Positions 10,506 through 52,399 of a DNA stretch of 64,000 nt are shown here, one piece after another. The first letter of the stretch is position 1. Every line of letters begins with the position of its first letter. This DNA is from Salinicola corii (GTDB lineage: Bacteria; Pseudomonadota; Gammaproteobacteria; Pseudomonadales; Halomonadaceae). The stretch is from the NCBI RefSeq assembly GCF_008298015.1, contig NZ_VTPX01000002.1, forward strand, positions 124,001 to 188,000, read 5' to 3'. The notes under the pieces are model-generated. The model was not told the DNA's origin. It ran no database searches and worked only from the letters and a program-made list of their open reading frames with translations. The position numbers and the translations under genes were made by a program.

Positions 10506-10751
10506 GGCGGCGTTCCTTTGCGATCGATGAGCTTGAAGACTCGGTTGTTGTGGGACGTCCGTCCGGGACCGCTTGCGTGGGTGACTTGGGCAAGGGTCGG
10601 ATCAACGAGAGTTTGAGTCTAGCGGCAGTGCGCCCGGTCGACCACCCGATGCCGAGTTCGGCGCGACCTGCTAGGCTTGGCGAACCCGAAGTGGCGTCCG
10701 GCTCGGGACGCCTCAATCAACGAAAGCGGTATCTCCAACAAGGAGCATGTC

Positions 10752-33723: not shown

Positions 33724-36700
33724 ATGCTCGAATTGCAAGGCGCTCCCGCGCTATCTGCATTCCGTCACGCCAAACTGCTCGCCGATCTTCGCGCTGTCGT
33801 TCCCGAAGTCGAGTCCCTCAAGGCACATTACGTTCATTTCGTCGACCATCATGACGAGCTCGACGCCGAGGCGCGCCAGGTGCTGGAGCGGTTGCTGGGC
33901 CATGGCCACGGTTCCGAACCCGGACGGGACGCATCGCCCGAAGGGTATCTGTTTCTGGTCGTGCCCCGTATCGGCACGATCTCGCCGTGGTCCTCCAAGG
34001 CCACCGATATCGCCCACAACTGCGGCCTCGAGTCGATCGCGCGGATCGAGCGGGGCATCGCCTATCGGATAACGCTGAAGAGCGCGCCGGCCCCCGAAAG
34101 CTACGACGCCCTGGTGGCGCGCCTGCACGATCGAATGACGGAGACCGTGCTGTTCGACTCGAGCGACGCGGCCAAGCTGTTCTCCCATCACCGGCCGACG
34201 CCGCTGGCCACGGTCGACGTGATCCAGGGCGGGCGTCCAGCGCTGGCGGACGCCAATGGCAAGCTAGGGCTGGCTCTGGCCGACGACGAGATTGACTATC
34301 TGGTCGAGGCCTTCCGGGGCCTGGGGCGCAACCCGACCGATGTCGAGTTGATGATGTTCGCCCAGGCCAACTCCGAACACTGCCGCCACAAGATCTTCAA
34401 CGCCGACTGGGTGATCGACGGCGAGCCGCAGACCCATTCGCTGTTCAAGATGATCAAGAACACCTTCGAGTGTTCCAGCGACAAGGTACTCTCCGCTTAC
34501 AGCGACAACGCGGCGATCATCGAAGGACCGACAGCGGGGCGTTTTTTCCCTTTGCCGGACAATCAGGTCTATGCCGCCATCCGGGAGCCGATCCATATCC
34601 TGATGAAGGTGGAGACCCACAACCACCCGACCGCGATCGCTCCGCATCCGGGGGCGGCCACCGGCGCTGGCGGCGAGATTCGCGACGAAGGCGCCACCGG
34701 GCGTGGCGGCAAGCCCAAGGCGGGCTTGACCGGCTTCACCGTCTCCAACCTGCGCATTCCCGAATTCGTCCAGCCGTGGGAGGCGTTCGACTACGGCAAG
34801 CCCGAGCGGATCCAGTCGGCCCTCGACATCATGCTCGAAGGGCCGATCGGCGGCGCGGCGTTCAACAACGAGTTCGGCCGCCCCAACCTCAACGGCTTCT
34901 TCCGCACCTTCGAACTCGATGCTGTCGGCGCGGGCGGTGTCGAGCGGCGCGGCTATCACAAACCGGTGATGCTGGCCGGCGGCTACGGCAATGTGCGCGA
35001 TGGCCACGTGCTCAAGGGCGAGATCCCGGTCGGCGCCAAGCTGATCGTGATGGGCGGCCCGGCGATGCTGATCGGCTTGGGCGGAGGTGCAGCCTCGTCG
35101 ATGGCCTCCGGCGTCTCCAGCGAGGATCTCGACTTCGCCTCGGTGCAGCGCGACAATCCCGAGATCGAACGTCGCGCCCAGGAAGTGATCGACCGCTGCT
35201 GGGCGCTGGGCGATGACAACCCCATTGCCTTCATCCACGACGTCGGTGCCGGTGGTCTCTCCAATGCCTTGCCGGAGCTGGTCAAGGATGGCGGTCGCGG
35301 TGGCCTTTTCGATCTGCGCGCGGTGCCCAACGCCGAGCCGGGCATGAGCCCGCTGGAAATCTGGTGTAACGAGGCCCAGGAGCGGTACGTGTTGGCGGTG
35401 ACCCCAGACCAGCTCGAGCGCTTCGACGCGCTTTGCGCCCGCGAGCGCTGCCCCTATGCCGTGGTCGGCGAGGCTACCGAGTCGCATCATCTGGCGGTTC
35501 GCGACGGTCAGTTCGAGGCCGATCCGGTCGACCTGCCGATGAGCGTGCTGTTCGGCAAGCCACCCAAGATGCAGCGCAGCTTCGAGCGCGAGACACTCAG
35601 CCTGCCGGGTCTCGGGCTCGACAACCTCGATCTGCGCGAAGCGCTGGATCGGGTGCTGCGGCTGCCGACGGTGGCGTCGAAGAGCTTTTTGATCACCATC
35701 GGCGACCGCTCGATCACCGGGATGGTTGCGCGCGACCAGATGGTTGGCCCGTGGCAGGTGCCGGTGGCGGACTGCGCGGTCACCACGTCGAGCTACGACA
35801 CCCACGCCGGCGAGGCGATGGCCATGGGCGAGCGCCCGCCGGTGGCGCTGATCGATCCGGCGGCCAGCGCGCGTCTGGCGGTCGCGGAGGCGATCACCAA
35901 TCTCGCCGCCGCGCCGATCGAAAGACTCTCCGACATCAAGCTCTCCGCCAACTGGATGAGCGCCGCCGATCACGTCGGCGAGAACCAGGCGCTGTATGAC
36001 GCCGTTCACGCGGTGGGCATGGAGCTGTGCCCTCAGCTTGGCATCGCCGTACCGGTGGGCAAGGATTCGATGTCCATGCGCACCGCCTGGCAGACGGAGG
36101 AGGGTGACGAAAAGAGCATCACCGCGCCGTTGACGTTGAACATCACCGGCTTTGCCCCGGTCACCGACGCACTGCGCACGCTCACGCCACAGTTGCGCCT
36201 CGACCAGGACGAGAGCGACCTGATCCTGATCGATCTCGGTCGCGGCCGGAATCGCCTCGGCGGCTCCGCCCTGGCGCAGGTCTACGGCCAGGTCGGCAAC
36301 GTCTGCCCGGATCTGGACGAAGCCGAGGACCTGGTGGCGTTCTTCAGCGTCATCCAGGGGCTCAACGCCGACGGCAAGCTGCTCGCCTACCATGACCGCA
36401 GCGACGGCGGCCTGATCGTGACCCTGCTGGAGATGGCCTTCGCCGGCCGCGGCGGGCTCGAGATCAAGCTCGACTGGCTCACCGACGATGCCGTCGGCGC
36501 GGTGGATGCGCTGTTCGCCGAGGAGCTGGGCGCGGTCATTCAGGTCAACCGCCAGGATACCGAATTCGTGCTGGCGCAGTTCGCCGCTGCCGGCATCGAG
36601 ACCTGTGGCGTCATCGCCCGCCCGCGTTACGACGACCAGGTCCGCGTGACGCTGTTCGAAGAGCCGCTGCTGGAAACCACCCGGGCCATGACCCAGCGCG

Positions 36701-37638
36701 TCTGGTCGGAAACCAGCTATCGGATGCAGGCGCTGCGCGACAATCCCGAATCCGCCAAGAGCGAGTTCGACGGCCTGCTCAACCTGCGCGATCCGGGGCT
36801 GTCGGCCAGTCCCACCTTCGATGTCGACGACGACGTCGCCGCGCCTTACATCCAGACTGGGGTGCGGCCGCGGGTGGCGATCCTGCGCGAGCAGGGCGTC
36901 AACGGGCATATTGAAATGGCGGCGGCGTTCGACCATGCCGGCTTCGAGGCGGTCGATGTGCACATGAGCGACATTCTCGCCGGGCGCATTACCCTCGACG
37001 ACATGAAAGGCCTGGTCGGCTGTGGCGGCTTCTCCTACGGCGACGTGCTCGGCGCCGGCGGCGGCTGGGCCAAGTCGGCGCTGTTCAACGGCCGCGCTCG
37101 CGACCAGTTCGCGGCCTTCTTCGAACGGGAAGACACCTTCGGCCTCGGGGTGTGCAACGGCTGTCAGATGTTCGCGCAGCTGAAAGAGTTGATCCCCGGC
37201 GCCGAGCGCTGGCCGCGCTTCGTGCGCAACGGCTCGGAGCAGTTCGAGGCCCGTGTCTCGATGGTCCAGGTCGAGGATAGCCCGTCGATCCTGCTCACCG
37301 GCATGGCCGGTTCGACCCTGCCGATCGCCGTCGCCCACGGCGAGGGCCAGGCGCTTTTCGAGGACAGCGGCCACCTGCGCGGCATGCAGACCAGCGGCCA
37401 GATCGCGCTGCGCTACATCGACAACGAAGGTCAGGTCACGACGCGCTATCCGGCCAACCCCAACGGCTCGCCGGCCGGCATCACCGGCCTGACCACGCCG
37501 GACGGTCGCGTCACCATCATGATGCCGCACCCCGAACGCGTCGCCCGCGCGGTCACCAACTCCTGGCGGCCGCTGGCGTGGAAGCAGGACGGCGCCTGGA
37601 TGCGGATGTTCCGCAATGCGCGCGTCTGGGTAGGGTGA
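33724..37638 (+). CDS. purL: Phosphoribosylformylglycinamidine synthase
   Basis: A 1304-residue large-type PurL converting FGAR to FGAM with glutamine and ATP, the fourth step of purine biosynthesis. The N-terminal domain is followed by an ATPase domain with the NSEHCRH and ETHNHPTAI motifs near residues 215 and 297, a second AIRS-like half, and a C-terminal class I glutaminase with GVCNGCQMF (nucleophile Cys near 1140) and MMPHPER near the end. Length matches E. coli PurL. GGAG precedes the ATG. It is monocistronic, closed by a strong terminator. Confidence 0.97.
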
Positions 37639-37681
37639 GCCGGGCTTGTCTCCATGCCTGATCCCTTACGCTCGCTCGACG

Positions 37682-37715
37682 AAGACCGGCCCGCCTCACG
37701 GCGGGCCGGTCTTTT
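37682..37715 (+). terminator. Rho-independent terminator after purL
   Basis: A 14-bp perfect GC-rich stem (AAGACCGGCCCGCC with GGCGGGCCGGTCTT), a four-base TCAC loop and a T-run, 44 bp after the purL stop. Confidence 0.93.
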
Positions 37716-38008
37716 CGTATTGGATTCTGAGAGAGCGAACCGCGAAGGTTTGCCTCAATAGCGCCCGCGCAGTACCGGAGCTCTCCGGTCTCAGCGGAGA
37801 TGTCCATTCATGGCAGCTCTTCGGAGCAGTACAAGGCGAATCGATTCGGTTCCATCGATAACGCCCAGAACTTCCCGCTCTTTCCTCCGTTTCTTCCTGT
37901 CTAGTCTACGCCATTGGTCTCGAAACTATGGTTGGATGCCAAAATCCAATCATATCCACAATAATGCAACCAAACGGTATTGGATTTGTTGGGTAATGAG
38001 GAAGAGCA
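37716..38008. other. Intergenic region without gene before DeoR gene
   Basis: About 290 bp between the purL terminator and the DeoR start with no convincing ORF. It contains a 16-bp palindrome at 37774-37789 (ACCGGAG CT CTCCGGT) and several TTGGAT half-sites. It becomes AT-rich from 37900 onward. Confidence 0.6.
37932..37987. promoter_or_regulatory. Candidate operator of the DeoR/TRAP operon
   Basis: Three TTGGAT half-sites in alternating orientation just before the DeoR start: 37932 (plus), 37944 (minus) and 37980 (plus). The last two form a 9-bp inverted repeat (AAATCCAAT at 37942, ATTGGATTT at 37979) with 28 bases between. A fourth copy (TATTGGATT) lies near 37719. Repeated sites close to a DeoR gene suggest autoregulation; this is inferred from sequence only. 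Confidence 0.5.
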
Positions 38009-38776
38009 ATGATGTACGCGGTCGAGCGTCAGCGAGCAATACTGGAACGGCTTCGGGCCAATGGGCGTATCAGCGTTCGTGATCTGAGTCGTGAACTCGA
38101 CCTTTCCGTCGAGACGATTCGGCGTGACCTCATCACACTTGAGCAGCAGTCATTGCTCAAGCGCGTCCACGGTGGCGCGGTCGATATTGCTCGCCTGGCG
38201 ATTCCCGAGCCGCCAATGGCCGAGCGCTCGAAGATCAAGACAGCTGAAAAGGAGCGCATTGCCGCGGCTGCCCTGGAGCATCTTCCCGACTCTGGCGTGT
38301 TGTTCATGGAGGCCGCCTCGATCTCGGTAATGATCGCCGAACGCCTACCCAATGATCGCGATTTTTTGATCGCCACCAACGGTCTGCTGGTCGCGCAGGC
38401 GCTGAGCGCACGTAAGAACGTCGAGGTCCTGATGATCGGTGGGCGTCTGCGATCGCGCAGCATGTCGACGGTGGATGACTGGGCGTTGGAGAATCTGCGC
38501 TCATTGCACCTGGACACCGCATTGCTTGGCAGTTTGGCTTATTCGTCCACAGCGGGATTGACGACCGGCGACGCCGCTGACGCGGCAGTCAAACGTCTGA
38601 TCTTGCGTATTGCCGAGACAAACATCCTGCTCGCCGAAGCCGCCAAGTACGGTGCGATCTCGGTCTGTCGGTACGGAGATATCGGCGACCTGGACATGCT
38701 GATCACCGACGACTCTCTGAGCGACTCCGCGCGCGAGGAATTGCTGGAGTACGACTTGGAAATCGTCACCGCCTGA
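38009..38776 (+). CDS. DeoR family transcriptional regulator
   Basis: A 255-residue regulator: an N-terminal DeoR winged helix (residues 5-57, RISVRDLSRELDLSVETIRRDLITLE) followed by KRVHGGAV, and a DeoRC sugar-phosphate sensor domain (from about 75; ATNGLLVAQAL, MIGGRLRSRSMSTVD). GAGGAAGAG precedes the ATG. It is the first gene before a TRAP transporter, sulfatase and dehydrogenases on the same strand, with only 59 bp to dctP, so it likely represses this operon and responds to a phosphorylated intermediate. Confidence 0.88.
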   Translation: MMYAVERQRAILERLRANGRISVRDLSRELDLSVETIRRDLITLEQQSLLKRVHGGAVDIARLAIPEPPMAERSKIKTAEKERIAAAALEHLPDSGVLFMEAASISVMIAERLPNDRDFLIATNGLLVAQALSARKNVEVLMIGGRLRSRSMSTVDDWALENLRSLHLDTALLGSLAYSSTAGLTTGDAADAAVKRLILRIAETNILLAEAAKYGAISVCRYGDIGDLDMLITDDSLSDSAREELLEYDLEIVTA

Positions 38777-38835
38777 GCCGAGCAGCAGAGCGTTCGGCGT
38801 CGGCGCTACACGTTAGGCAATACGGAGAAGAGAGT

Positions 38836-39906
38836 ATGTTGACAACTTATAAATCACTGATCTCGATCGTATTTGGGGGTTGTCTATTGGGGATGGCCGC
38901 CTCGGCTGGCGCACAGACCGGGGAGAACCCGGTGTCCTGGGACGGGGCACCGGAATCCGACGGCCAGATTGCCATGAAAATGGGCTATTCCAACAGCATT
39001 TCCTGGTCGACGCTTGGCACGACACTGCGGCGCTTTGGTCAGCTCGTTTCGATCTACAGTGACAATCAGATAAGGCCCCGAATCTATCCCGGCGGGCAGC
39101 TTGGCAGCGAGCGGGAGATGATTCAGCAGGCGCAGCAGGGTGCGGTGCAGGTCACGATCCCTGCGGCAAACAACCTGGCCCCGCTGGCGCCGACGATGAA
39201 TATCTTCGTGCTGCCCTACATCGTTGATTCCACCGACAAGATGAACAACTTGCAGGACGAACTGGGGCCAACGGTGACCGATAGGGTGATCGATGAAGCC
39301 GGCGTGCGGATTGTGGGCTGGGAGAATTCCGGCTGGCGTGAGTTTTTCTACAACGCCGACGAGCCCATCTCGCAACCCTCCGATCTCAGCCGGTTCAAGA
39401 TGCGGGTGCCACAGAATCCCATCATGATCGCCACCTATGAAGCCTGGGGTGCGAATCCGACACCGGTGAACTGGGTCCAGACCTACAACGCCCTGGAGCA
39501 GGGCGTCGTGCAGGGGGGAGACAGCCCTATACGAGATATTGTCGGGGCCAAGTTCACCGAAGTGGTCAACCGAGTTACCACGCTGCACTACAACATGCTG
39601 ATCCATCCCATCGTGGTCTCCGAACGCTGGTTCCAGTCACTGGACGACTTCCAGAAGAAAGCGGTACTGCGCGCCGGGCGTGAGGCGACGGCTTACGTGC
39701 GTTGGTGGCAGCCACTGCGCGAGGAGCAGTGGTGGCAGCAGGCTCGTGACGAAGGTCTGATGATCAATGCCATCGAAGACGAGAGCGAATGGGAGCAGCA
39801 GGCTCAGAAGCTTTGGCCAGAATTTGTTGACTCGCTGGGTAGCGACGGCCAGCAACTGCTCGATGAAGCCAAGCGCATCAACGCGCAGTACGACCAATCC
39901 CACTGA
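38836..39906 (+). CDS. dctP: TRAP transporter substrate-binding protein (DctP)
   Basis: A 356-residue periplasmic binding protein with a signal peptide ending around SAGAQT (residue 27). DctP features include QLGSEREMIQQAQQGAVQVTIPAANN, ENSGWREFF near 155, the FKMRVPQNPIMIATYEAWGANPTPVNW segment with the Arg that binds substrate carboxylate, and [39 protein letters not shown] lies before the ATG. It is expected to bind an acidic, possibly sulfated, compound given the sulfatase downstream, but DctP sequence alone does not define the ligand. Confidence 0.9.
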   Translation: MLTTYKSLISIVFGGCLLGMAASAGAQTGENPVSWDGAPESDGQIAMKMGYSNSISWSTLGTTLRRFGQLVSIYSDNQIRPRIYPGGQLGSEREMIQQAQQGAVQVTIPAANNLAPLAPTMNIFVLPYIVDSTDKMNNLQDELGPTVTDRVIDEAGVRIVGWENSGWREFFYNADEPISQPSDLSRFKMRVPQNPIMIATYEAWGANPTPVNWVQTYNALEQGVVQGGDSPIRDIVGAKFTEVVNRVTTLHYNMLIHPIVVSERWFQSLDDFQKKAVLRAGREATAYVRWWQPLREEQWWQQARDEGLMINAIEDESEWEQQAQKLWPEFVDSLGSDGQQLLDEAKRINAQYDQSH

Positions 39907-39923
39907 GCGACGCGGTCAACGTC

Positions 39924-40397
39924 ATGAACAAAATACTGGAAAACCTCTTCCTGGCGATCTCCGGCACTCTGCTGACACTGATGGTGGTGGTCGTCTTCTA
40001 TGGCGTCGTCTCCCGAGAGCTGGGATGGAGCGTCGCCTGGACCACCGAGCTGGGACAGATGCTGTTTCTTGCCAGCGTCTTCACGGGTGCTGCGTACGCC
40101 ACCCTGAAAAAGGCTCATCTACAGATCGGCGTGCTGTCGGGGCTGGTAAAGGGGCGCTTCAGCCAGCCCTTGCTCGAGGGGGGGCAGCAGCTCGTAGTAA
40201 TTCTCTTCAGCGCGGCGGTGGCGTGGTTCGCCACTGCCAACCTGATGGATGGCTTCCGCTACCCGGATATCTCGCCGACGCTTGGGATTAACCGCAGCTA
40301 TCTCTACGCCATCATGGCCGCGAGTTTCACGGTGATCGCGATCCACGGGCTCTATCGGCTGGGCCACATCGTCGTCGCGCGCGGGAGGATCCAATGA
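39924..40397 (+). CDS. dctQ: TRAP transporter small permease (DctQ)
   Basis: A 157-residue membrane protein with four hydrophobic helices (about residues 7-29, 45-63, 85-108 and 128-148), and the DctQ-type WTTELGQMLFLASVFTGAAYATLKKAHLQIGVL stretch. It sits between dctP and dctM and overlaps the latter by 4 bases (ATGA), so the two membrane parts are translationally coupled. DctQ stabilises the DctM channel and contacts the binding protein. Confidence 0.88.
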   Translation: MNKILENLFLAISGTLLTLMVVVVFYGVVSRELGWSVAWTTELGQMLFLASVFTGAAYATLKKAHLQIGVLSGLVKGRFSQPLLEGGQQLVVILFSAAVAWFATANLMDGFRYPDISPTLGINRSYLYAIMAASFTVIAIHGLYRLGHIVVARGRIQ

Positions 40398-41692
40398 ACT
40401 GGCTCTACATGGATTTCATCGTACTCCTGCCACTGCTACTGCTGCTTGGCGTGCCGATCTTTGTGTCACTCGGCATCGTCGGCATGCTGGCGGCGTATCT
40501 GATGAATAACCCGATGGTCTTCGCCACGCAGGGTATCCTCAACGGACTCGAAAACTTTGCACTGTTGGCAATACCATCGTTCATTCTGGCCGGAAACATC
40601 ATGGAGAAGGGCGGAATAACCGGCGACATCATCAGGATATTCCGCAAGCTGTTCGGGCACATCCACGGCAGCCTGGGTATTGTGACCATTTTCTCGTGCA
40701 TGTTCTTCGCCGCGATCTCCGGATCGGGGCCGGGCACCGTGGCTGCCATCGGCGCGATCATGATTCCCGCCATGCAGCGGCAGGGGTATCCGGCGCCATA
40801 CGCGGCGAGCGTCGCGGCTACCGGCGGTACGCTGGGGGTCATGATTCCGCCCTCCAACCCGCTAATTCTCTACGGTGTTATTGCCAACGTGTCTATCGCC
40901 GACCTGTTCGCTGCCGGCGTGATACCTGGCGTGATGATCAGTTTCCTGCTGGCGGGCATGGCCTACCTGATGGCACGTCGGTCCGGTGCCGTCGCGAAGT
41001 CCGGCGGAGATAATGATAGTCGTGAACGCCAGCCTCTGGGCTGTTTGCTCTGGGAGGCGAAATTTTCCCTGTTCCTTCCGGTCCTCATTCTGGGTGGCAT
41101 CTATCTGGGCTTCTTCACCCCGGTCGAGGCATCGGTTTGCGCTGTCGTCTACGCGCTGGTGGTGTCTTTCGCGGTCTACCGTCAAATCACGCTCGAGGGG
41201 TTGATCGCGGCCGTCGAGTCCACCGTCAAGCTTAGCGGTGCGCTGATGATCATCGTTGCCTGCTCGACGCTGTTTGCCAAAGTGATCGCCATCGAGCAGA
41301 TCCCCCAACAGTTCATTGCGCTTTTTTCCGGCGTGACAGAAAGCCCCATTGTGCTGCTGTTGATCATCTGCGCCGTGCTGCTGGTGATCGGCACCTTCAT
41401 GGAGACGTTGTCGTCGATCATTATTTTGGCGCCGATCCTGGTACCTCTGGTGGAGAGCTACGGCATCGATCCGGTGCTGTTCGGCATATTGCTGGTGGTG
41501 ACCAACGAGATCGCGTTTCTGACACCACCGCTAGGAGTCAATCTCTTCGTTGCCAGCCAGATCGCTGACATCGGGATCGGGCGTTTGGCCATTGCCGTAT
41601 TGCCATTTCTGGCGGTGTTGGTGCTGGCGCTCCTTATCCTGATTTTCTTCCCGTCTCTCACGCTCTGGCTGCCGACGATCATCAAGGCATAG
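40394..41692 (+). CDS. dctM: TRAP transporter large permease (DctM)
   Basis: A 432-residue sodium-driven channel subunit with about 12 hydrophobic helices. DctM motifs: a NGLENFALLAIPSFILAGNIM segment near 50, AISGSGPGTVAAIGAIMIPAM near 105, GGTLGVMIPPSNPLILYG near 145, and the C-terminal ITNEIAFLTPPLGVNLFVASQIA-like stretch near 370. With DctP and DctQ it imports the operon's substrate. Residue composition becomes AT-richer toward the end of the gene. Confidence 0.92.
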   Translation: MNWLYMDFIVLLPLLLLLGVPIFVSLGIVGMLAAYLMNNPMVFATQGILNGLENFALLAIPSFILAGNIMEKGGITGDIIRIFRKLFGHIHGSLGIVTIFSCMFFAAISGSGPGTVAAIGAIMIPAMQRQGYPAPYAASVAATGGTLGVMIPPSNPLILYGVIANVSIADLFAAGVIPGVMISFLLAGMAYLMARRSGAVAKSGGDNDSRERQPLGCLLWEAKFSLFLPVLILGGIYLGFFTPVEASVCAVVYALVVSFAVYRQITLEGLIAAVESTVKLSGALMIIVACSTLFAKVIAIEQIPQQFIALFSGVTESPIVLLLIICAVLLVIGTFMETLSSIIILAPILVPLVESYGIDPVLFGILLVVTNEIAFLTPPLGVNLFVASQIADIGIGRLAIAVLPFLAVLVLALLILIFFPSLTLWLPTIIKA

Positions 41693-41719
41693 AGCGCGCT
41701 TATAGAAGGATACGACGTT

Positions 41720-43246
41720 ATGAATATCATTTCCGTGCTCGTTGATAGCTTCAATAAGGACGTCCTGAAAACCTATAACCCGGACAGTGATGTGCGCTGT
41801 CCCAATCTGGAAGCCTTTGCCGCACGCGCCTGCATTTTCGAAAACCACTTCGTCGGCAGCCTGCCCTGTATGCCCGCGCGTCGCGAGATCATGTCCGGGC
41901 GCAAGGATTTTCTGTGGCGCCCGTGGGGACCGATGGAAGTTTTCGATGATCGATTAGCCTCCCATATGGCCAAAGGGGGGTATCGTACGGGTATTGTTAC
42001 GGATCATTATCACTACTGGGAAGAAGAAGCTAACGGCTACGTCGAAGACTTTGAATCCATTACTTTCGTGCGAGGTCACGAGCTTGACCGACATAAACTT
42101 GCTACCGAGGAGAACATCCCGCCGTGGGTTGGGAAGATGATGGAATATCGCCGGGAAGGCGCTTTGCAGTATTACGCTAACGTCAAGAATTTTGAGGGAG
42201 AAGAAGATTATTTCCCCGCCAGGGTCTTCACAGAGGCCACTGAATGGCTGGACAAAAACGCGGGAAAAACGCCTTTCTATCTACACATAGAAAGCTTCGA
42301 TGTTCACGAGCCTTTCGACGTTCCCGAGCCCTATGCCAGCCAGTATCTCAAGCCGGGAGAGCGCGCCAAGGCGCTTAAGCAACGCTACAATATCTGGCCT
42401 CCCTATCAAAAATATGACGACCTATCCCGGTTTTTCGATCACACCGACGAAGCCGAACTCGACTTTATTCGCACCCAGTACAAGGGCAAGGCGAGCATGG
42501 TCGATCACTGGTTCGGCAAGCTCATGAACAAGCTCGATGAGCTCGACCTCTGGGACGATACCGTTGTCGTCTTCACCACCGATCATGGTCACGACCTGGG
42601 AGAACGCGGCGGTTTCGGCAAGCAGTACCCGCACTATGATAGCCATGCCAACATTCCGCTCATGGTCTGGCATCCGGCTCATCCCGGTGCGGGACAGCGT
42701 GTCGAATCGTTGACCCAGACAGTGGATCTGTTCGCCACCCTTCTGGACCTGGCAGGCCTTCCATGCCCGGCAAGCGCGCCTCATAGCCGTAGCTTTCTGC
42801 CGTCGGTGGTCGACTCTGAGAACACGGGGCGCGAGGCAATTCTCTACGGAACTTTCGGGCAGGGTATCTGCATCACAGATGGCGAGTGGACGCTCTTTCG
42901 GTCGCCCGCCGCGGGCAAGCCGCTGCACGCCTACTCCAGCTTCATTGCTCGCCCTCTGCTGGTCGATAACCCGGTCGATGGTCGAGTGGGGAAAATGCCG
43001 GAACCGCCGTCGGGACAGGGTTATTTCGACGGCTCCATCCCCTATCCCTTATGGCAGATCCCGGTTCAGGTGGACCCGAGAAGTCACGAGCATTTTTTGT
43101 TCAACCGCCGGAAAGATCCCGCACAGCACGATAATTTATGGCAGCGCCAACCGGAAACACGCGACCGCTTACTCGAAAAACTGCGCGGCATGATGTGCGA
43201 GGAGGGGGCGCCCGATGAACAATTCGACAGACTGCAGTTGAATTGA
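41720..43246 (+). CDS. Cytoplasmic sulfatase family hydrolase
   Basis: A 508-residue alkaline-phosphatase-superfamily sulfatase. The sulfatase nucleophile motif CMPAR (CxPxR, Cys50) has the Cys that must be converted to formylglycine, and metal ligands are visible in VLVDSFNKD (Asp9) and TTDHGHDLGERG. No signal peptide precedes the catalytic domain, so it acts in the cytoplasm, fitting uptake of intact substrate by the TRAP transporter upstream. A phosphonate-monoester hydrolase is an alternative, since that group shares CxPxR. No maturation enzyme (FGE or AtsB-type) is in the window. Its base composition is AT-richer than its surroundings. Confidence 0.85.
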   Translation: MNIISVLVDSFNKDVLKTYNPDSDVRCPNLEAFAARACIFENHFVGSLPCMPARREIMSGRKDFLWRPWGPMEVFDDRLASHMAKGGYRTGIVTDHYHYWEEEANGYVEDFESITFVRGHELDRHKLATEENIPPWVGKMMEYRREGALQYYANVKNFEGEEDYFPARVFTEATEWLDKNAGKTPFYLHIESFDVHEPFDVPEPYASQYLKPGERAKALKQRYNIWPPYQKYDDLSRFFDHTDEAELDFIRTQYKGKASMVDHWFGKLMNKLDELDLWDDTVVVFTTDHGHDLGERGGFGKQYPHYDSHANIPLMVWHPAHPGAGQRVESLTQTVDLFATLLDLAGLPCPASAPHSRSFLPSVVDSENTGREAILYGTFGQGICITDGEWTLFRSPAAGKPLHAYSSFIARPLLVDNPVDGRVGKMPEPPSGQGYFDGSIPYPLWQIPVQVDPRSHEHFLFNRRKDPAQHDNLWQRQPETRDRLLEKLRGMMCEEGAPDEQFDRLQLN

Positions 43247-43336
43247 GCCTGGGGTCATAACTCGAATCAGAAATTTCCTGCTTCGAGATCGATTGGTAGC
43301 TCCGTGCTACGGGGCAATTATCTGTAGGGAGTCGTC

Positions 43337-44446
43337 ATGATTACCAGTGCCGTATTTCCAGGTCGTTATATACAGGGGAGAGAAGCGCTGAATGAATTGG
43401 GAACTCATCTTGCGAACCTAGGAAATGCCGCAATACTTGTCGTTGACCCGAGTATAAGACAGTGGATGGTGCCACGTGTCATCGAGGCCATTAGCGGGGA
43501 AGTCAGGGTCGAGTCCTTCGATTTTTCTGGCGAGCCGGTCGAATATGAAATGAAGCGACTTTCGGAAATGGTCGCGGGAAAAAGCTGCGACATTGTGATC
43601 GGAGTCGGTGGCGGAAAGGCAATCGACACGGCCAAGGGCGGTGTCCATTTTGGCGGTGGCTCTCGACTGGTCGTTGTACCGACTATCGTGGCTTCGGATG
43701 CGCCATGCAGCAAAAATGCGGTCGTCTACAGCGCAGGTCATAAGGTGGTTGGCAGTCTCCATTGCCGATCCAACCCGGATCTCGTAATCGTTGATACACA
43801 GGTCATCGCAGCCGCACCTTCACGCTTTCTATCCGCCGGGATTGCTGATGGGCTGGCTACCTGGTTTGAAGCCCGTTCGAGTATCGCGGCCGGGAGACGC
43901 AATTTCACCGGTTATCGTGCGACCCGGACGGCGGAAGCGATTGCGCGTCTATGCTACGAGACATTGATCTCCCAGGGGCCATTGGCGCTGTCGCACTGTG
44001 ACAATGGTTGGGCCAGCCCAGCACTGGAAGATGTTGTTGAGGCGGCCACGCTGATGAGCACCATCGGCTTCGAGAGCGGTGGTCTCGCTTCCGCTCATGG
44101 CTTTCATCAGGGAGTTTCCGAGTGGAAGGAAACCCATGACCTTTTACATGGCGAAAAGGTCGCTTTCGGTCTATTGGCGAGCCTGTTTCTCACGAACGAG
44201 TCCGAAAGCGTCATCTGCGAGACATTCGAATTTTGCAAGTCCCTACGTTTGCCGCTGACGTTCGCCGAAATCGGTGTGCATGACATGACGGACGATAAGT
44301 TGCACGTTGCCGTGCGCCGCATGATGAGGCCAGGAGAGTGTACGTTCAATGAGCCGATCGAATACGACGAGGCTGATTATGTCATCGCCATGCGAGCCGC
44401 TGATCAATATGGACGCGTTATTCACGATGTCGGGGTTGGTTGTTGA
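43337..44446 (+). CDS. Iron-containing / GldA-type alcohol dehydrogenase
   Basis: A 369-residue glycerol-dehydrogenase-like enzyme. The NAD-binding GVGGGKAIDTAK motif is near residue 92-103, TIVASDAPCS near 118 and metal ligands appear in GIADGLATWFEA (Asp near 170), ASAHGFHQG (His near 254) and LLHGEKVAFG (His near 272). It probably oxidises a polyol or hydroxy compound released by the sulfatase to a ketone or aldehyde. GGGAG precedes the ATG. The gene is AT-richer than its neighbours outside the operon. GldA itself oxidises glycerol to dihydroxyacetone; the actual substrate here is open. Confidence 0.87.
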   Translation: MITSAVFPGRYIQGREALNELGTHLANLGNAAILVVDPSIRQWMVPRVIEAISGEVRVESFDFSGEPVEYEMKRLSEMVAGKSCDIVIGVGGGKAIDTAKGGVHFGGGSRLVVVPTIVASDAPCSKNAVVYSAGHKVVGSLHCRSNPDLVIVDTQVIAAAPSRFLSAGIADGLATWFEARSSIAAGRRNFTGYRATRTAEAIARLCYETLISQGPLALSHCDNGWASPALEDVVEAATLMSTIGFESGGLASAHGFHQGVSEWKETHDLLHGEKVAFGLLASLFLTNESESVICETFEFCKSLRLPLTFAEIGVHDMTDDKLHVAVRRMMRPGECTFNEPIEYDEADYVIAMRAADQYGRVIHDVGVGC

Positions 44447-44527
44447 GGTAGCAATGACAACGATCAAGGGGAGGACGGCGGGTCATTATTGCGCGACGTT
44501 CAATAGGTAATGTTGGGGAGGCACGGC

Positions 44528-45289
44528 ATGTCGATATCACCATTTGATTTGAAGGATCGAAAAGCGCTCGTCACCGGTGGTGGGCAGGGTATCGGTTTGG
44601 CGTTTGCACGGGGCCTGGCGGAAGCGGGGGCTGATGTCATGCTCGTCGCGCGTCAATCGGTACATCTGGAAGCCGCTCGAGAGGCACTGTCCGATACTGG
44701 AGCGGGAGTCGATATCTTCTCGGCAGATGTGACGCGGGAATCTGATTGCGAGGCGCTTGCCAATTACTGTCGAGAGCAGTTTGGTGAGCTGGATATTCTG
44801 GTCAACAATGCTGGCACCAACTGGCGTGGAATGCCGCAGGACTACACGTTGGAGCAATGGAAGGCCCTGATTGATGTCAACCTGACGAGCGTGTTTTTGG
44901 TCAGTCGATGCATGTTCCCCATGCTATCCATCAAGGGTGGAAAAATCATTAATGTCGGTTCCATGACCTCGATTTTCGGGACGACGCACACAGCCCCTTA
45001 CGGTGCGGCGAAGGGTGGGGTCGTTCAGTTGACACGGGCGCTGGCCTCGGCACGGTACGATATTCAGGTTAATGCCATTCTGCCTGGCTGGATTGACACC
45101 GACCTCACGGCGCGGGGTCGTGAAGCGAGCCCGGAGCTTCACGACAAGGTCCTGGCGCGGACCCCGGCAGGACGATGGGGACAGCCGCAGGATTTGGTGG
45201 GGGCTGGTGTTTTTTTGGCGAGCGCGGCATCGAATTTTGTAACAGGTATTGCCATGCCAGTGGATGGAGGCTACTCCGCCGAAGGGTAA
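44528..45289 (+). CDS. SDR family oxidoreductase
   Basis: A 253-residue classical short-chain dehydrogenase starting at ATG 44528 behind GGGGAGG. The NAD(P)-binding GGGQGIG is near residue 17, NNAG near 92, the catalytic Ser in NVGSMTS near 145 and YGAAK near 158-162. It ends with AMPVDGGYSAEG. The closest well-known group includes gluconate 5-dehydrogenase and similar polyol/sugar-acid dehydrogenases. It is the last gene of the TRAP/sulfatase operon and likely acts on the same desulfated product as the GldA-like enzyme. Confidence 0.88.
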   Translation: MSISPFDLKDRKALVTGGGQGIGLAFARGLAEAGADVMLVARQSVHLEAAREALSDTGAGVDIFSADVTRESDCEALANYCREQFGELDILVNNAGTNWRGMPQDYTLEQWKALIDVNLTSVFLVSRCMFPMLSIKGGKIINVGSMTSIFGTTHTAPYGAAKGGVVQLTRALASARYDIQVNAILPGWIDTDLTARGREASPELHDKVLARTPAGRWGQPQDLVGAGVFLASAASNFVTGIAMPVDGGYSAEG

Positions 45290-45440
45290 CGCATATCTGC
45301 CTCCGAGCATGACCCATGGCTCCACTCCCGACGGTATTGAATGCCAACTTTTGCGGTGGGGACTCAGATTTGTCATTACGCAGTGCGACTTGTTGAGCCG
45401 TAGGGATCGCTTCGCTATCTGATGAAAGTCACCCCTTGCT

Positions 45441-46970
45441 TTATTCTTCTGGATACAGCATCCAATGCCTGGCCCGTATCCGCTCCAGGCAGAGTCTGAG
45501 TTCGCCATCCAGTGCGCGGTCCTCTGATACCGGGTCGAACTCTTCACGCAGCGTGTCGACCATGGCGGCAAGCGGGGCGGGCAGGGGATCGCCACGCAGG
45601 TGGACGCCCTGGAGTCCGGCCAGTAGCGCAGCGGCGGCGACCTGTTCGGTGAGCTCGAGCACGCGCAGGGCGTCGCGGGCGGCGATGGTGCCCATGCTCA
45701 CCTTGTCCTGGTTGTGGCATTCGGTGGAGCGCGAGAAGACGCTGGCGGGCATGGTGCCCTTGAGCGCCTCGGCGGCCCAGGCGGAGGCGCCGATCTGGAC
45801 CGCCTTGAAGCCGTGATTGATCATCGCCCGCTCGGCCGGGGCGCCGGAGAGGTTGCTCGGCAGGCCGTGGTTGTAGCGGCCGTCGACCAGCAGCGCGAGC
45901 TGGCGGTCGAGCAGGTCGGCGACATTGGCGGTCAGTGTCTTGAGGCTATCCATGGCGAAGGCGATATGGCCGCCGTAGAAGTGGCCGCCATGCATGACGT
46001 CGCCGACATCCGGGTCGATCAGCGGATTGTCGTTGGCGCTGTTGAGTTCGATCTCGATGAAACCGCGCAGCCAATCGAGGCTGTCGGCCAGGACGCCTAG
46101 CACGTGCGGCGCGCAGCGCAGCGAGTATCGATCCTGCAGGCGCTGCTGCGGTGGCAGGTTTTTCAGTTCCAGATCGGCTCTCAGCCACGCGGCGATCCTG
46201 GCCTGGCCAGGATGCGGCTTGGCCGCGAACAGCCGTGCGTCGAAGTGGTCGGGGTTGCCCCGCATGGCGGCCACGTTGAGCGCGGTGATACGGGTGGCGA
46301 GCTTTAACAGATATTCGGCACGGGCGAACGCCTGGCACGCCAGCGCGGTCATCACCGCGGTGCCGTTCATCAGCGCCAGCGCTTCCTTGGGGCGCAGCGT
46401 CAGCGGCTGCCAGCCCAGTTCGGCGTGAGCCTCGGCCGACGTCCGCACTTCCCCCTGCCAGATCACTTCGCGCTCACCGCACAGCATGGCGGCCACGTAG
46501 GAGAGCGGCGTCAGGTCGCCGCTGGCGCCCACCGAGCCCTCTTCGGGAATGCGGGGCAGCAGGTCTTCCCGCAGGCAGGCGTGAAGACGCTCGAGCAGCG
46601 CGAAGCTTACGCCGGACACGCCCTGGCAGAGCGACTGCAGGCGAGCAGCGAGCACTGCGCGCGCTGCCTCGGCTTCGAGAAAACGGCCCAGTCCGCAGCC
46701 ATGAAAGGTATAGAGCTGGCGCGGCAGCGCTTCGACCAGGGAAAGTGGAATGGCGGTGACGCAGGAGTCGCCATAGCCGGTGGTGATGCCGTAGATCTGT
46801 CCCTCACGGTCCAGCAGGCCCTCGACGACCGCCGCGCCCCGATCGATCCGCGCTCGCCAAGCGGGGTCGTCGTCGAGGTTCGATGTGAAGCGGCGCTCGG
46901 CCAAGGCGACCACCGCTTCGAGAGTTAGCGGCACGGGGCCGAAGGTGACCTGCGGGGCGTTCGGGGACAT
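45441..46970 (-). CDS. MIO-type aromatic amino acid ammonia-lyase (HAL/PAL/TAL family)
   Basis: A 509-residue lyase. The Ala-Ser-Gly triad that cyclises to the MIO electrophile is at residues 149-151 (GSVGASGDLTPLSY), with the catalytic Tyr region ITTGYGD near 62-68. The selectivity pair is Phe89-His90, unlike Ser-His in HutH, His-Leu in TAL or Phe-Leu in PAL. The later ECHNQDKVSMG stretch resembles the HNQD motif of PAL/TAL, not the NQEDH motif of HutH. No hutU, hutI or hutG lies nearby. It deaminates an aromatic amino acid, but which one is open. Confidence 0.85.
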   Translation of the reverse strand: MSPNAPQVTFGPVPLTLEAVVALAERRFTSNLDDDPAWRARIDRGAAVVEGLLDREGQIYGITTGYGDSCVTAIPLSLVEALPRQLYTFHGCGLGRFLEAEAARAVLAARLQSLCQGVSGVSFALLERLHACLREDLLPRIPEEGSVGASGDLTPLSYVAAMLCGEREVIWQGEVRTSAEAHAELGWQPLTLRPKEALALMNGTAVMTALACQAFARAEYLLKLATRITALNVAAMRGNPDHFDARLFAAKPHPGQARIAAWLRADLELKNLPPQQRLQDRYSLRCAPHVLGVLADSLDWLRGFIEIELNSANDNPLIDPDVGDVMHGGHFYGGHIAFAMDSLKTLTANVADLLDRQLALLVDGRYNHGLPSNLSGAPAERAMINHGFKAVQIGASAWAAEALKGTMPASVFSRSTECHNQDKVSMGTIAARDALRVLELTEQVAAAALLAGLQGVHLRGDPLPAPLAAMVDTLREEFDPVSEDRALDGELRLCLERIRARHWMLYPEE

Positions 46971-47066: not shown

Positions 47067-47381
47067 CTATTCGGGGCGGATGGCGGTGTAGAAGAAACGC
47101 ACTGAAGGTTCGCCTTCGATCAACGGTGCGGTGCCTTCCTTGAACGGCGGGTAGTGCGGCATCTGCATGTGATGCTCGAAGGCGGCACGATCGCGATAGA
47201 CCTCGTGCAGAACGACAACGTCTTCGCTGCCTTCCGGGGTCAGTACGTCGAACGCCAGGCAGCCTTCCTCGTTGGTCAGGGATTCGCTGGCATCGTTGTG
47301 CGCCAGCGCGAGAAAGGCCGATACCTGGCCAGGCTTGATGCTGAATTCGGCAATGACCACGAAGTGCGTGGATTCGGCCAT
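47067..47381 (-). CDS. ABM-domain (antibiotic biosynthesis monooxygenase-like) protein
   Basis: A 104-residue dimeric alpha+beta barrel domain: FVVIAEFSIKPGQVSAFLALA at the start, NEEGCLAFDVLTPEGSEDVVVLHEVYRDRAAFEHHMQMPHYPPF in the middle. This is the YgiN/ABM fold seen in quinol monooxygenases and small catabolic enzymes. AAGGAGATCACC gives a strong ribosome site for the ATG at 47381. The role is unknown; it may be coregulated with the upstream lyase on the same strand or stand alone. Confidence 0.85.
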   Translation of the reverse strand: MAESTHFVVIAEFSIKPGQVSAFLALAHNDASESLTNEEGCLAFDVLTPEGSEDVVVLHEVYRDRAAFEHHMQMPHYPPFKEGTAPLIEGEPSVRFFYTAIRPE

Positions 47382-47463
47382 GGTGATCTCCTTATCGAGG
47401 GGACGGGAATGGTAACGTCGAGCGCCTGGCGGTATCGATGCCGTCAGGCCGTTGTCCATGTAA

Positions 47464-48002: not shown

Positions 48003-48773
48003 TCAGGGGGCTGTTGCCATCTCCGGATTGAGAACGGCGGCGCCAAGCGTCCGAAAGGTATCCAGGCGTTCGTCCGTGGCATCGGTGATCAGCGTCCACT
48101 GATGCGGAAACGGCGTCCAGTGCTGCTGGCTGGCATGGCCCAGCTTGGTGGCATCGGCCATCACGTAGACCTCTGCGGCACGCGCAATCATCGCCTCCTT
48201 CAGCCATGCCTGCTCCGGGCTGGCTTCGCAGAGGCCCAGTTCGGTGACGCCGTCGGCGCTGAGAAACAGTCGGTCGACCGTCAGGCGCGAGAGCGCGGCG
48301 TGGGCCAGTGGACCGTAGGCGGTCATGCTCGAGGCGCGCAGATCGCCGCCGAGCACGGTGGTGTGTCCCTCCGGCAACTGCGTCAGCCAAGGCAGTGCGG
48401 CCATGTTGTTGGTCACGACGTGAAGGCCGCGCCGCTCGCCGAGCCGGGCGGCCAGCGCCGCGGTCGTGGTGCCGCCATCGAGCAGCAGCGTATCGCCATC
48501 CTCGATGCACGCCAGTGCGCAGGCCGCGAGGCGTGCCTTGACCTCGCCTTGGCGCATGCGGCGCTGTTCCAGCGTCAATTCGGGCTCGCGCTGGCCGATG
48601 GTCGTTGCCGCACCGCCATAGGTACGAACCAGCAGACCCTGCTCGGACAGCGCGCCGAGATCGCGGCGGGCGGTCGCTTCGGAGATGCCGAAGTGGCGGC
48701 AGAGAGCCTCGATGCTGGTGATGCCGGCATGGACGGCTTCCAGCATGTCATGGCGGCGTTTGGCGACTTTCAT
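48003..48773 (-). CDS. DeoR family regulator of the tetronate/lar gene cluster
   Basis: A 256-residue DeoR-type repressor starting at ATG 48773: a winged helix at residues 6-55 (GITSIEALCRHFGISEATARRDLGALSEQG) with LVRTYGGA, then a DeoRC sensor with DGGTTTAALAARL near 92, NNMAALPWL near 115 and a LFLSADGVTELGL motif near 165. It lies at the end of the tetronate gene cluster, on the same strand, downstream of the LtnD-like dehydrogenase, as DeoR regulators do in known otn/ltn loci. It is the best local candidate for binding the palindrome shared by the two cluster promoters. Confidence 0.85.
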   Translation of the reverse strand: MKVAKRRHDMLEAVHAGITSIEALCRHFGISEATARRDLGALSEQGLLVRTYGGAATTIGQREPELTLEQRRMRQGEVKARLAACALACIEDGDTLLLDGGTTTAALAARLGERRGLHVVTNNMAALPWLTQLPEGHTTVLGGDLRASSMTAYGPLAHAALSRLTVDRLFLSADGVTELGLCEASPEQAWLKEAMIARAAEVYVMADATKLGHASQQHWTPFPHQWTLITDATDERLDTFRTLGAAVLNPEMATAP

Positions 48774-48795
48774 GTGGTTCCCCCGCAATCGAACG

Positions 48796-48813
48796 AACCC
48801 GCCTGGGCGGGTT
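48796..48813 (-). other. Hairpin between the dehydrogenase and DeoR genes
   Basis: A GC-rich inverted repeat (AACCCGC, CTGG loop, GCGGGTT) between the two minus-strand genes. It lacks a proper T-run in either direction, so it is at best a weak attenuator or mRNA processing site. Confidence 0.35.
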
Positions 48814-48895
48814 TCGACACCTGTTTCTGGCCAGTGGTCGCCGGCTATTGTGCCATCGCCACCGTCCGCGCCCTACCGTGGATAACGGCGAGCGC

Positions 48896-49801
48896 TCAGT
48901 CGGCCAGAGACAGCTGATGACGCGCCGCGACGATGTCGGAGAGCTCGGGAACGTACTTCTCGCCGTCGCCCTGGGCTTCGGCGCTGGCGTAGAGGTCGCG
49001 CACGGCCTTGGCGACGCCGGCTTCGACGTTCATTGCCTCGGCCAGCGAGGCCAGGTAACGCGTGTCCTTGTGGGCGTTCGCCAGGGTGAAGCGATGCGCG
49101 TCACGGTCGCGTTCCAGCACGTACTGGAAGAAGGTGCGGTAGAAGCCGCTATCCATGCGCGAGCCTCGAATGACGCTGTCGAAGGTCTGCGGCGTGATGC
49201 CGGCCTTGGCACCGATGGTCAGCGCCTCGGCGAAGATCGCGCCATAACCCATGGCGAGGAAATTGTTGAGCAGCTTCATGGTATGGCCGGCGCCCACCGG
49301 GCCGACATGCATGATTCTCGCGGCCCAGGTTTCGATGACCGGGCGCACTCGTTCGAGAGTGGTTTCGTCGGCACCGATGATCGCCTGGAGTTCGCCGCTC
49401 TCGGCCTGTGCCGGGATGCCGCCGAGCGGAGCGTCGATCAGCGTGATGTGATCCTGTGCCAGTGATTCGGCGAGCTTGCGCGTCAGCGTCGGTTCGGACG
49501 TCGAGCAGTCGACGATGACGAGGTTGTCGCGCCCCGCCTGCCTGGCACCGACGCGGATGCCGTGCTCGCCATCGATCAGCGATTCGACCTGAGGCGCGCC
49601 GGTCACGCAGAGAAAGACGATATCGCATTCGGCGCCCAGCGCTGCCGCGTTGGCGGCTTCTTCGGCGCCTCTGGAAACCAGGTCGTCGATGGGTTGGCGG
49701 TTACGGTGGGCCAGTACCTTGAGCGGATAACCCGCCTTGAGGATATTGCCGGCCATACCGGCGCCCATGAGTCCGAGTCCTGCAAAACCGATGATCGGCA
49801 T
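48896..49801 (-). CDS. NAD(P)-dependent 2-hydroxyacid/tetronate dehydrogenase (LtnD-like)
   Basis: A 301-residue beta-hydroxyacid-dehydrogenase family enzyme: nucleotide motif GFAGLGLMGAGMAGNIL at residues 5-21, DCSTSEP near 98, substrate-binding DAPLGGIPAQAESG near 123-136 and the catalytic Lys176 with Asn180 in HTMKLLNN. The family includes LtnD, DenD and tartronate semialdehyde reductase. Next to the kinase-PdxA2 gene it probably oxidises L-threonate or a related four-carbon acid at C2 or C3. AGGAGAGACAT makes a strong ribosome site; the gene lies 64 bp downstream of the fusion gene. Confidence 0.85.
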   Translation of the reverse strand: MPIIGFAGLGLMGAGMAGNILKAGYPLKVLAHRNRQPIDDLVSRGAEEAANAAALGAECDIVFLCVTGAPQVESLIDGEHGIRVGARQAGRDNLVIVDCSTSEPTLTRKLAESLAQDHITLIDAPLGGIPAQAESGELQAIIGADETTLERVRPVIETWAARIMHVGPVGAGHTMKLLNNFLAMGYGAIFAEALTIGAKAGITPQTFDSVIRGSRMDSGFYRTFFQYVLERDRDAHRFTLANAHKDTRYLASLAEAMNVEAGVAKAVRDLYASAEAQGDGEKYVPELSDIVAARHQLSLAD

Positions 49802-49865
49802 ATGTCTCTCCTGGGTATCGATGGATCGTTGTCGATGGCGCCTTTTTGATCGATCGAGATGAGGT

Positions 49866-52244: not shown

Positions 52245-52276
52245 GGTTATGATTGAACCGATTAAATATTTCCGTA

Positions 52277-52306
52277 TAAATTGATCGATTCGATCATAAA
52301 TGGCAA
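52277..52306 (-). promoter_or_regulatory. Promoter/operator of the kinase-PdxA2 gene, shared palindrome
   Basis: A perfect 15-bp palindrome TGATCGATTCGATCA (52282-52296) lies 38 bp before the gene start, inside a 30-nt block 25/30 identical to the kdgT promoter. Read on the minus strand, TTGCCA (-35-like) precedes the palindrome, which falls where it would block RNA polymerase. A regulator binding site is inferred. Confidence 0.7.
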
Positions 52307-52399
52307 GTCGACGAAGGTGGAACACGACCCGTCATGAGCCTGAACACGCGTGGCCACCAACCGGAAAACAAGGCCGAATTCAGTTCGACTGACTCAGAC

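Follow-up and report, generated by a model that had tools for sequence, protein, structure and literature searches.

The sea is rich in organic sulfate esters, and the sulfatases known from marine bacteria mostly act on polysaccharides outside the cytoplasm. In choline-O-sulfate catabolism, the ester is imported and then desulfated inside the cell. Here we analyse 64,000 nucleotides of the Salinicola corii genome (NCBI RefSeq assembly GCF_008298015.1, contig NZ_VTPX01000002.1, positions 124,001 to 188,000 of the forward strand; hereafter the window), in which seven plus-strand genes follow one another in the order deoR, dctP, dctQ, dctM, sulfatase, GldA-type dehydrogenase and short-chain dehydrogenase/reductase (SDR), the three dct genes encoding a tripartite ATP-independent periplasmic (TRAP) importer. 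The most likely reading, which we regard as evenly balanced, is that this cassette serves to import a small sulfated alcohol or sugar intact, desulfate it in the cytosol and oxidise the remainder.

Comparison with described systems

In choline-O-sulfate catabolism (BetC; SulfAtlas family S1_12 according to PMC5066984), the action of a formylglycine sulfatase on a small alkyl sulfate is followed by that of a dehydrogenase on the alcohol, a scheme that the cassette resembles. The window sulfatase, however, scores 114.3 bits against the choline sulfatase equivalog TIGR03417, under its cut-off of 433.45, and the importer, regulator and dehydrogenases differ. The formylglycine phosphonate monoester hydrolases (PMHs; S1_0, structures 4uph, 2vqr and 2w8s) share the fold and most catalytic residues with the window sulfatase, but identity is 16–19% over the Foldseek alignment, the cut-off of the PehA equivalog NF045661 is missed (114.3 of 900), and the loci of the sulfatase's relatives hold importers, sugar kinases and aldolases. 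A clade of mostly alphaproteobacterial sulfatases (loci L069, L050 and L012, for example), 55–63% identical to the window protein and alignable with it from the first residues, occurs together with linked importers of the SsuABC-like ABC type, an FGGY kinase, a class II aldolase, a Zn-dehydrogenase and a formylglycine-generating enzyme (FGE). Loci of this clade differ from the window in having mostly an ATP-binding cassette (ABC) rather than a TRAP importer and in having a kinase and an aldolase, and no GldA relative was found by BLAST among the called open reading frames (ORFs) of the compared loci.

The TRAP systems for sulfonates have receptors of the same fold family as DctP that bind small sulfur-containing anions, but these are only distant relatives, the isethionate receptor 8t9t scoring 112.3 bits and the 2,3-dihydroxypropane-1-sulfonate receptor 24gc 73 bits against 189.4 bits for 4pfr, the best solved relative of DctP. 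This is followed by 24gg and 24gh at about 172 bits, and the ligand is not evident from the names of these entries. Sulfonates are not substrates of sulfatases. The preliminary description of the locus had presented the pathway as unfamiliar, and no description of the gene set was found among open-licence PMC papers; it is nevertheless less novel than was implied, because import followed by intracellular desulfation is already precedented by choline-O-sulfate. The parts are of known kinds, and the combination is not known from a described system.

A predicted cytosolic formylglycine-type sulfatase

The seven genes lie between purL (33724–37638) and a convergent aromatic-amino-acid-lyase gene (45441–46970), and are separated by 59, 17, −4, 27, 90 and 63 bp as judged from ORF coordinates. 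All seven ORFs were recovered on the plus strand where they had been described earlier (Table 1), and their family assignments are borne out by Pfam, each protein exceeding the gathering cut-off of its family (DeoRC/HTH_DeoR, DctP, DctQ, DctM, Sulfatase, Fe-ADH and adh_short_C2). The set of TRAP, sulfatase, GldA and SDR genes was found in no compared locus, and there is no integrase among the seven genes.

The sulfatase begins MNIISVLVDSF, and in its AlphaFold2 model (predicted local distance difference test score 92.2, predicted template modelling score 0.93) residues 2–8 form the first strand, which is followed by the metal ligand D9. There is therefore no room for a signal peptide, in agreement with the earlier proposal of a sulfatase lacking one, and export was rejected because the catalytic fold begins at residue 2. 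The PF00884 score lies above the gathering threshold of 25 bits and places the protein in the S1 sulfatase family. The segment C50-M-P-A-R54 matches the C-x-P-x-R nucleophile motif, and C50, P52, A53 and R54, together with D9, D288, H289, H196 and K301, do not vary across an alignment of 38 sequences (the window protein and 37 relatives). In profile alignments, the nucleophile, metal and general-acid residues match those of solved sulfatases and PMHs. In choline sulfatase, as given in the accessible text of PMC5870055, the metal ligands include Asp14, Asp296 and His297, the nucleophile is Cys54, His201 and Lys309 form the general-acid pair, and Lys102 and Asn75 bind the sulfate. The places equivalent to Asn75, Lys102 and His104 read WGP and TDHYHYW in the window protein, where pairing is ambiguous in the alignments, and neither Lys102 nor Asn75 has a clear counterpart.

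The top Foldseek match of the model is the PMH 4uph (E 5.3e-25), and the best Foldseek and sequence matches include the PMHs 4uph, 2vqr and 2w8s. With VIA-align, S1_25 and S1_7 sulfatases rank first (top match 6hr5, Z 34.4, root mean square deviation 2.5, 347 aligned), and ranks 1–19 contain S1 sulfatases and PMHs together, with Z falling from 34.4 to 31.1.

Activation would require an FGE. The genome has four PF03781 matches, the best of which (259.5 bits) carries GGSFLCHDSYCNRYR, which we take to be the FGE motif. The gene of this best match (L018 9924–12373, contig C28 of the same genome) adjoins another PF00884 sulfatase with the motif SCAPS, and the genome has nine PF00884 matches in total, the window sulfatase included. 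One of them, a paralogue 57% identical to the window sulfatase (L017 9838–11370; C5:60355–61857 of the same genome), adjoins a sugar-porter-type major facilitator superfamily gene. By its sequence, the paralogue is of the same predicted cytosolic design with another importer, and its position in the tree, with Rhizobium and Devosia sequences, points to a separate origin.

Gene neighbourhoods of the sulfatase clade

A scan of 84,980 species genomes, relying on two peptide patterns, yielded 172 relatives, of which the best 80 were used. The tree has 73 rows, comprising the window, the paralogue from the same genome, four plasmid loci and 67 of the 80 loci, with 13 partial or distant loci left out. 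The window sulfatase falls within a clade of 44 rows (support 100/100), with L033 from Paracoccus maritimus as its sister (support 99/96); the exact sister is less sure than clade membership, because both sequences are on long branches. The clade is composed mostly of alphaproteobacteria, many of them marine by name, and also contains one Thiotrichales, one Granulosicoccaceae and one Flavobacteriales bin.

The other 43 clade loci were compared with 42 loci outside the clade (39 of the 80, plus L014, L015 and L017), using protein clusters formed at 35% identity, a level at which distant analogues outside the clade would escape. None of the 42 outside loci has an NMT1/SsuA-type binding protein (26 of 43 clade loci), a class II aldolase (25), a kinase and an aldolase together (24), a BisC-like molybdoenzyme (22), a Zn-dehydrogenase (20), a SorC-type regulator (20) or an FGE gene (16). 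An FGGY or PfkB kinase is present in 29 clade loci against one outside, an SDR in 17 against three, and a split transketolase in 11 against one. Of the 43 clade loci, 27 have an ABC importer of the NMT1/Ssu type close to the sulfatase, and a sugar ABC cluster was found in 12 of the 42 outside. The binding-protein, kinase, aldolase and FGE partners are mostly less than 9 kb from the clade sulfatase. Clusters were named from Pfam searches with one or two members each, or from record annotation for the permease and sugar-ABC clusters; the NCBIfam labels SsuA, BisC and XylB are best matches under cut-off, one clade binding protein scoring 97.3 bits against the aliphatic-sulfonate SsuA family TIGR01728 (cut-off 163.5). 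Transporters that belong to no cluster, among them the sugar ABC genes of L033 and L047, do not enter the counts, and some partners were missed because ORFs were called by a crude script that placed the opposite strand over some sulfatases (L060, for example) and merged or split genes. Furthermore, the 43 loci are not independent, L013 and L060, and likewise L037 and L038, being near-identical in the sulfatase, and some end at contig edges.

Individual loci are consistent with this pattern. At L063, the sulfatase, a class II aldolase, a PfkB kinase and an SDR lie on one strand and adjoin or overlap one another, with boundaries at 10539/10540, 11193/11190 and 12146/12119, a packing that is the clearest indication of a connection between desulfation and sugar catabolism. 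At L069, kinase, Zn-dehydrogenase, aldolase, regulator, ABC genes and sulfatase stand in line, and the L033 locus contains both an FGE and an ABC importer of the sugar type. Taken together, the clade neighbourhoods support a route in which an ester would be imported intact and cleaved in the cytosol, and the sugar- or polyol-like alcohol then phosphorylated or oxidised.

The sulfatase is also found with the BisC-like molybdoenzyme, a split transketolase, an FGGY kinase and an SsuABC-like importer at L050 (7034–19510) and L012 (518–13545), and with a similar set without transketolase at L069 (3–10524). The BisC-like protein matches the S/N-oxide reductase family under cut-off, and its place in a sulfate-ester route is puzzling.

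The TRAP importer and the two dehydrogenases

The three TRAP proteins each exceed the gathering cut-off of their family (PF03480, PF04290 and PF06808), and DctP does not reach the narrower TIGR00787 model (146.6 of 175.05). It has a signal-like N-terminus and an arginine, R190, within KMRVPQNP. Among 398 genomes sampled across the phylum, a DctP relative at E ≤ 1e-60 was found in one of the 397 others, at 53% identity, where an enolase-superfamily protein and a GntR regulator are encoded on the other strand. After this relative's dctM, the opposite strand encodes a PF00884 protein (140.7 bits) that has a membrane part at its N-terminus; by reading of its translation, it is an LtaS-like membrane protein with Thr replacing Cys and not a counterpart of the window sulfatase. 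DctP relatives at E ≤ 1e-40 occur in 29 plasmid records, with 33–39% identity among the 20 listed.

The GldA-type enzyme belongs to the subfamily defined by NF006941 (Table 1) and misses the narrower equivalogs NF053832 (324 of 550) and NF047954 (280.9 of 700). The stretches containing D171, H254/H257 and H271, presumably ligand residues, align with the glycerol dehydrogenase 1kq3. A threshold of E ≤ 1e-90 gave no relative in the 397 other genomes sampled across the phylum; at E ≤ 1e-60, 125 plasmid records hold one, the best among those listed being 45.7% identical. The best solved relatives of the SDR are gluconate dehydrogenases.

Acquisition of the cassette

The gene purL is present in all 18 genomes of the genus and the lyase gene in 15. 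In eight of the 17 other genomes, the gap between them is 391–498 bp, and in these eight, DNA homology to the window ends at 37631–37638 and restarts at 45447–45454, so that about 7.8 kb here correspond to less than 0.5 kb there. Over the relatives in general, the left-hand end of homology lies at 37631–37645. At E ≤ 1e-60, the sulfatase was found in one of 275 genomes of the family, the host itself, and in none of the 274 others, in a search that gave scores only for the best few candidates per genome. It was found in five of 293 genomes of an order-wide sample, the four besides the host having 34–38% identity. Given the short gap in eight of 17 relatives and the lack of the sulfatase in the other family genomes searched, the comparison provides good support for horizontal acquisition of the seven-gene cassette. 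Acquisition had been suggested earlier from the AT-richness of the later genes, and this AT-richness is upheld: the GC content is 0.55–0.57 in the sulfatase, gldA and SDR genes, 0.58–0.60 in deoR and the TRAP genes, and 0.67–0.68 in purL and the lyase gene, with third-position values of 0.57–0.65, 0.72–0.80 and 0.83–0.86, respectively.

The gap holds other genes elsewhere in the genus. In genome G466 (locus L150), it spans about 8.8 kb with Pfam matches to a DAO oxidoreductase, Na_H_antiporter, Aldedh, a LysR regulator, Aminotran_3 and the HGLS 2-oxoadipate dioxygenase, and in G460 (L151) a sodium:solute symporter gene lies in a gap of about 2.5 kb. Since three genus genomes hold three different cargoes and eight hold less than 0.5 kb, the purL–lyase gap (window 37639–45440) has the look of a place where accessory metabolic genes are exchanged. 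The lyase match and purL are on separate contigs in G461 and G472, and far apart on one contig in G462 and G474; three genus genomes have no lyase match.

Proposed pathway and alternative explanations

In the proposed pathway, the TRAP importer would carry an intact sulfate ester, small and anionic and formed from a polyol or a sugar-like alcohol, into the cytoplasm. There, the formylglycine sulfatase, activated by the cell's own FGE, would hydrolyse it to sulfate and alcohol. With NAD, the GldA-type enzyme would then convert the vicinal diol to a hydroxyketone, and the SDR would catalyse a further oxidation or interconvert ketone and alcohol, with DeoR keeping the cassette repressed until an intermediate appears. 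We infer that the importer and the sulfatase share a substrate, that the ester is a sulfate, and also the order of the oxidations and the role of DeoR. GldA-type enzymes act on vicinal diols, and the favoured substrate class is therefore a small sulfate ester bearing a vicinal diol. Import of an intact ester, cleavage inside the cell and oxidation had been put forward in the preliminary description; the formylglycine-type cytosolic sulfatase, the importer genes, the FGE in the genome and the clade neighbourhoods with importers and sugar or polyol enzymes sustain this scheme, and the part that fared less well is the TRAP system as the sulfate-ester carrier.

Several observations weigh against the scheme. 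The row of the 53% identical DctP relative consists, on the same strand, of a GMC oxidoreductase and an aldehyde dehydrogenase; this context fits an alcohol-bearing substrate and speaks against calling the TRAP importer specific for sulfate esters ahead of testing. The clade importer is usually an ABC system, and TRAP genes stand directly beside the sulfatase in no compared locus; at L063 and L012, they are 2.5–7 kb away with other genes between, and unconnected. Neither the kinase nor the aldolase that is usual at clade loci is present in the window, and GC content shifts from the TRAP genes to the final three genes, which may indicate different origins. The sulfatase reaches no NCBIfam cut-off among those listed (arylsulfatase, 119.2 of 481), and comparison of the modelled fold does not tell sulfatases from PMHs, the model matching both alike, so that structure leaves the choice between sulfate and phosphorus esters undecided.

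Some of these points would also be explained if an unsulfated hydroxy-acid or polyol were the compound handled by the TRAP importer, GldA and SDR, with the sulfatase as a passenger acting on an ester that enters by another way. That the best TRAP relative lies beside alcohol- and aldehyde-oxidising enzymes and without a comparable cytosolic sulfatase, that the composition changes between the TRAP and sulfatase genes as if they came from two sources, and that clade sulfatases partner ABC rather than TRAP importers would all suit it. We nevertheless consider it rather unlikely, as the sulfatase starts 27 bp past dctM inside the gene row, the whole set fills one empty site, and importers of the NMT1/Ssu type recur near the clade sulfatases. 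It is more improbable still that the hydrolase is a formylglycine phosphodiesterase or PMH and the imported compound a phosphodiester or phosphonate ester, for example a glycerophosphodiester giving glycerol to GldA. The PMHs among the best structural and sequence matches point that way, as does the want of evident equivalents, at the aligned places, of the sulfate-subsite Asn and Lys of choline sulfatase (as given in the available portion of PMC5870055); yet S1 sulfatases and PMHs lie within a few Z units of each other in VIA-align, SsuA-like importers of the sulfonate type are among the clade neighbours, and none of the seven genes belongs to a phosphate or phosphonate family.

A route for choline-O-sulfate or a similar osmolyte is hardly credible. 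According to PMC5870055, choline sulfatase belongs to the class I sulfatases and acts on an alkyl sulfate ester, and TIGR03417 does match the window protein; however, that match is far under cut-off, no bet gene is among the seven, and GldA and SDR score far under the choline-dehydrogenase models or not at all. On the missed cut-off and the missing bet genes, an identity as choline sulfatase was rejected.

It is possible, and we put it forward tentatively, that a dedicated sulfate-ester TRAP importer, a cytosolic sulfatase and two dehydrogenases make up a new catabolic pathway for a small sulfated polyol or sugar, the host's version of a widespread, undescribed family of cytosolic sulfatases in which one enzyme clade has recombined with SsuABC-like, sugar ABC and TRAP importers and with differing downstream sugar enzymes, so as to use dissolved organic sulfate esters as sources of carbon and sulfur. 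If the clade does travel with importers, FGE, sugar kinases and aldolases, this would be a sign that a pool of small sulfated metabolites has been overlooked. The window offers a compact version (receptor, sulfatase and two dehydrogenases), in which one DctP ligand could name the substrate and guide work on the clade.

Regulation and transcription signals

The palindrome that precedes deoR (Table 1) coincides in part with the region's single sigma-70-like match (37936–37965), and its natural reading is as a putative DeoR operator. The pattern TTGGAT-N6-ATCCAA has one exact match in the window; with up to two mismatches, there are three matches against 1.14 expected, a number reached in 12 of 100 shuffles. 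Promoter-like sites (1 against 3.5 expected) and terminator-like sites (4 against 7.3 expected) are both below chance, so that a single transcription unit is deduced only from the gene spacing. The hairpin after purL is absent from the terminator-scan list, the scan requiring five T.

Table 1. Features of the cassette and its upstream region (window coordinates; scores in bits)
Feature	Position	Strand	Details
Terminator-like hairpin	37682–37713	+	14-bp perfect arms, run of four T, after purL; left edge of unshared stretch
Operator-like palindrome	37927–37954		TATGGTTGGAT-N6-ATCCAATCATA, upstream of deoR
Further half site	37979–37987		ATTGGATTT, beside operator-like palindrome, upstream of deoR
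DeoR-family regulator	38009–38776	+	PF00455 130.7, PF08220 57; under all listed NCBIfam cut-offs
DctP, TRAP solute-binding protein	38836–39906	+	PF03480 182.4; NF037995 178.8 (cut-off 50)
DctQ, TRAP small permease	39924–40397	+	PF04290 75.6
DctM, TRAP large permease	40394–41692	+	PF06808 372.7; TIGR00786 399.3 (cut-off 268.45)
Predicted cytosolic formylglycine-type sulfatase	41720–43246	+	PF00884 123.8; C50-M-P-A-R, D9, D288, H289, H196, K301
GldA-type glycerol/vicinal-diol dehydrogenase	43337–44446	+	NF006941 377.1 (cut-off 336); best solved relative 1kq3
SDR, gluconate-5-dehydrogenase/KduD type	44510–45289	+	PF13561 198.4; best NCBIfam matches under cut-off

Neighbouring genes

On the minus strand at 48003–52325, the window has a second DeoR gene, a beta-hydroxyacid-type dehydrogenase gene and an 819-aa ORF that is a fusion of a DUF1537-type kinase (D-threonate-kinase-like, under cut-off) with PdxA. 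By its sequence, this is a predicted four-carbon sugar-acid set with a kinase–PdxA fusion. A link of these genes to the cassette, as a sink for an oxidised C4 polyol, was considered and dropped: they stand on the other strand, past the point where the unshared stretch ends on the right, and nothing was found to connect the two sets. The aromatic-amino-acid lyase, also encoded on the minus strand, misses the HutH cut-offs (390.7 of 524 and 377.8 of 539.15), and its substrate is therefore uncertain. Near the lyase gene, at 47067–47459, is a small gene for a protein with an antibiotic-biosynthesis-monooxygenase domain.

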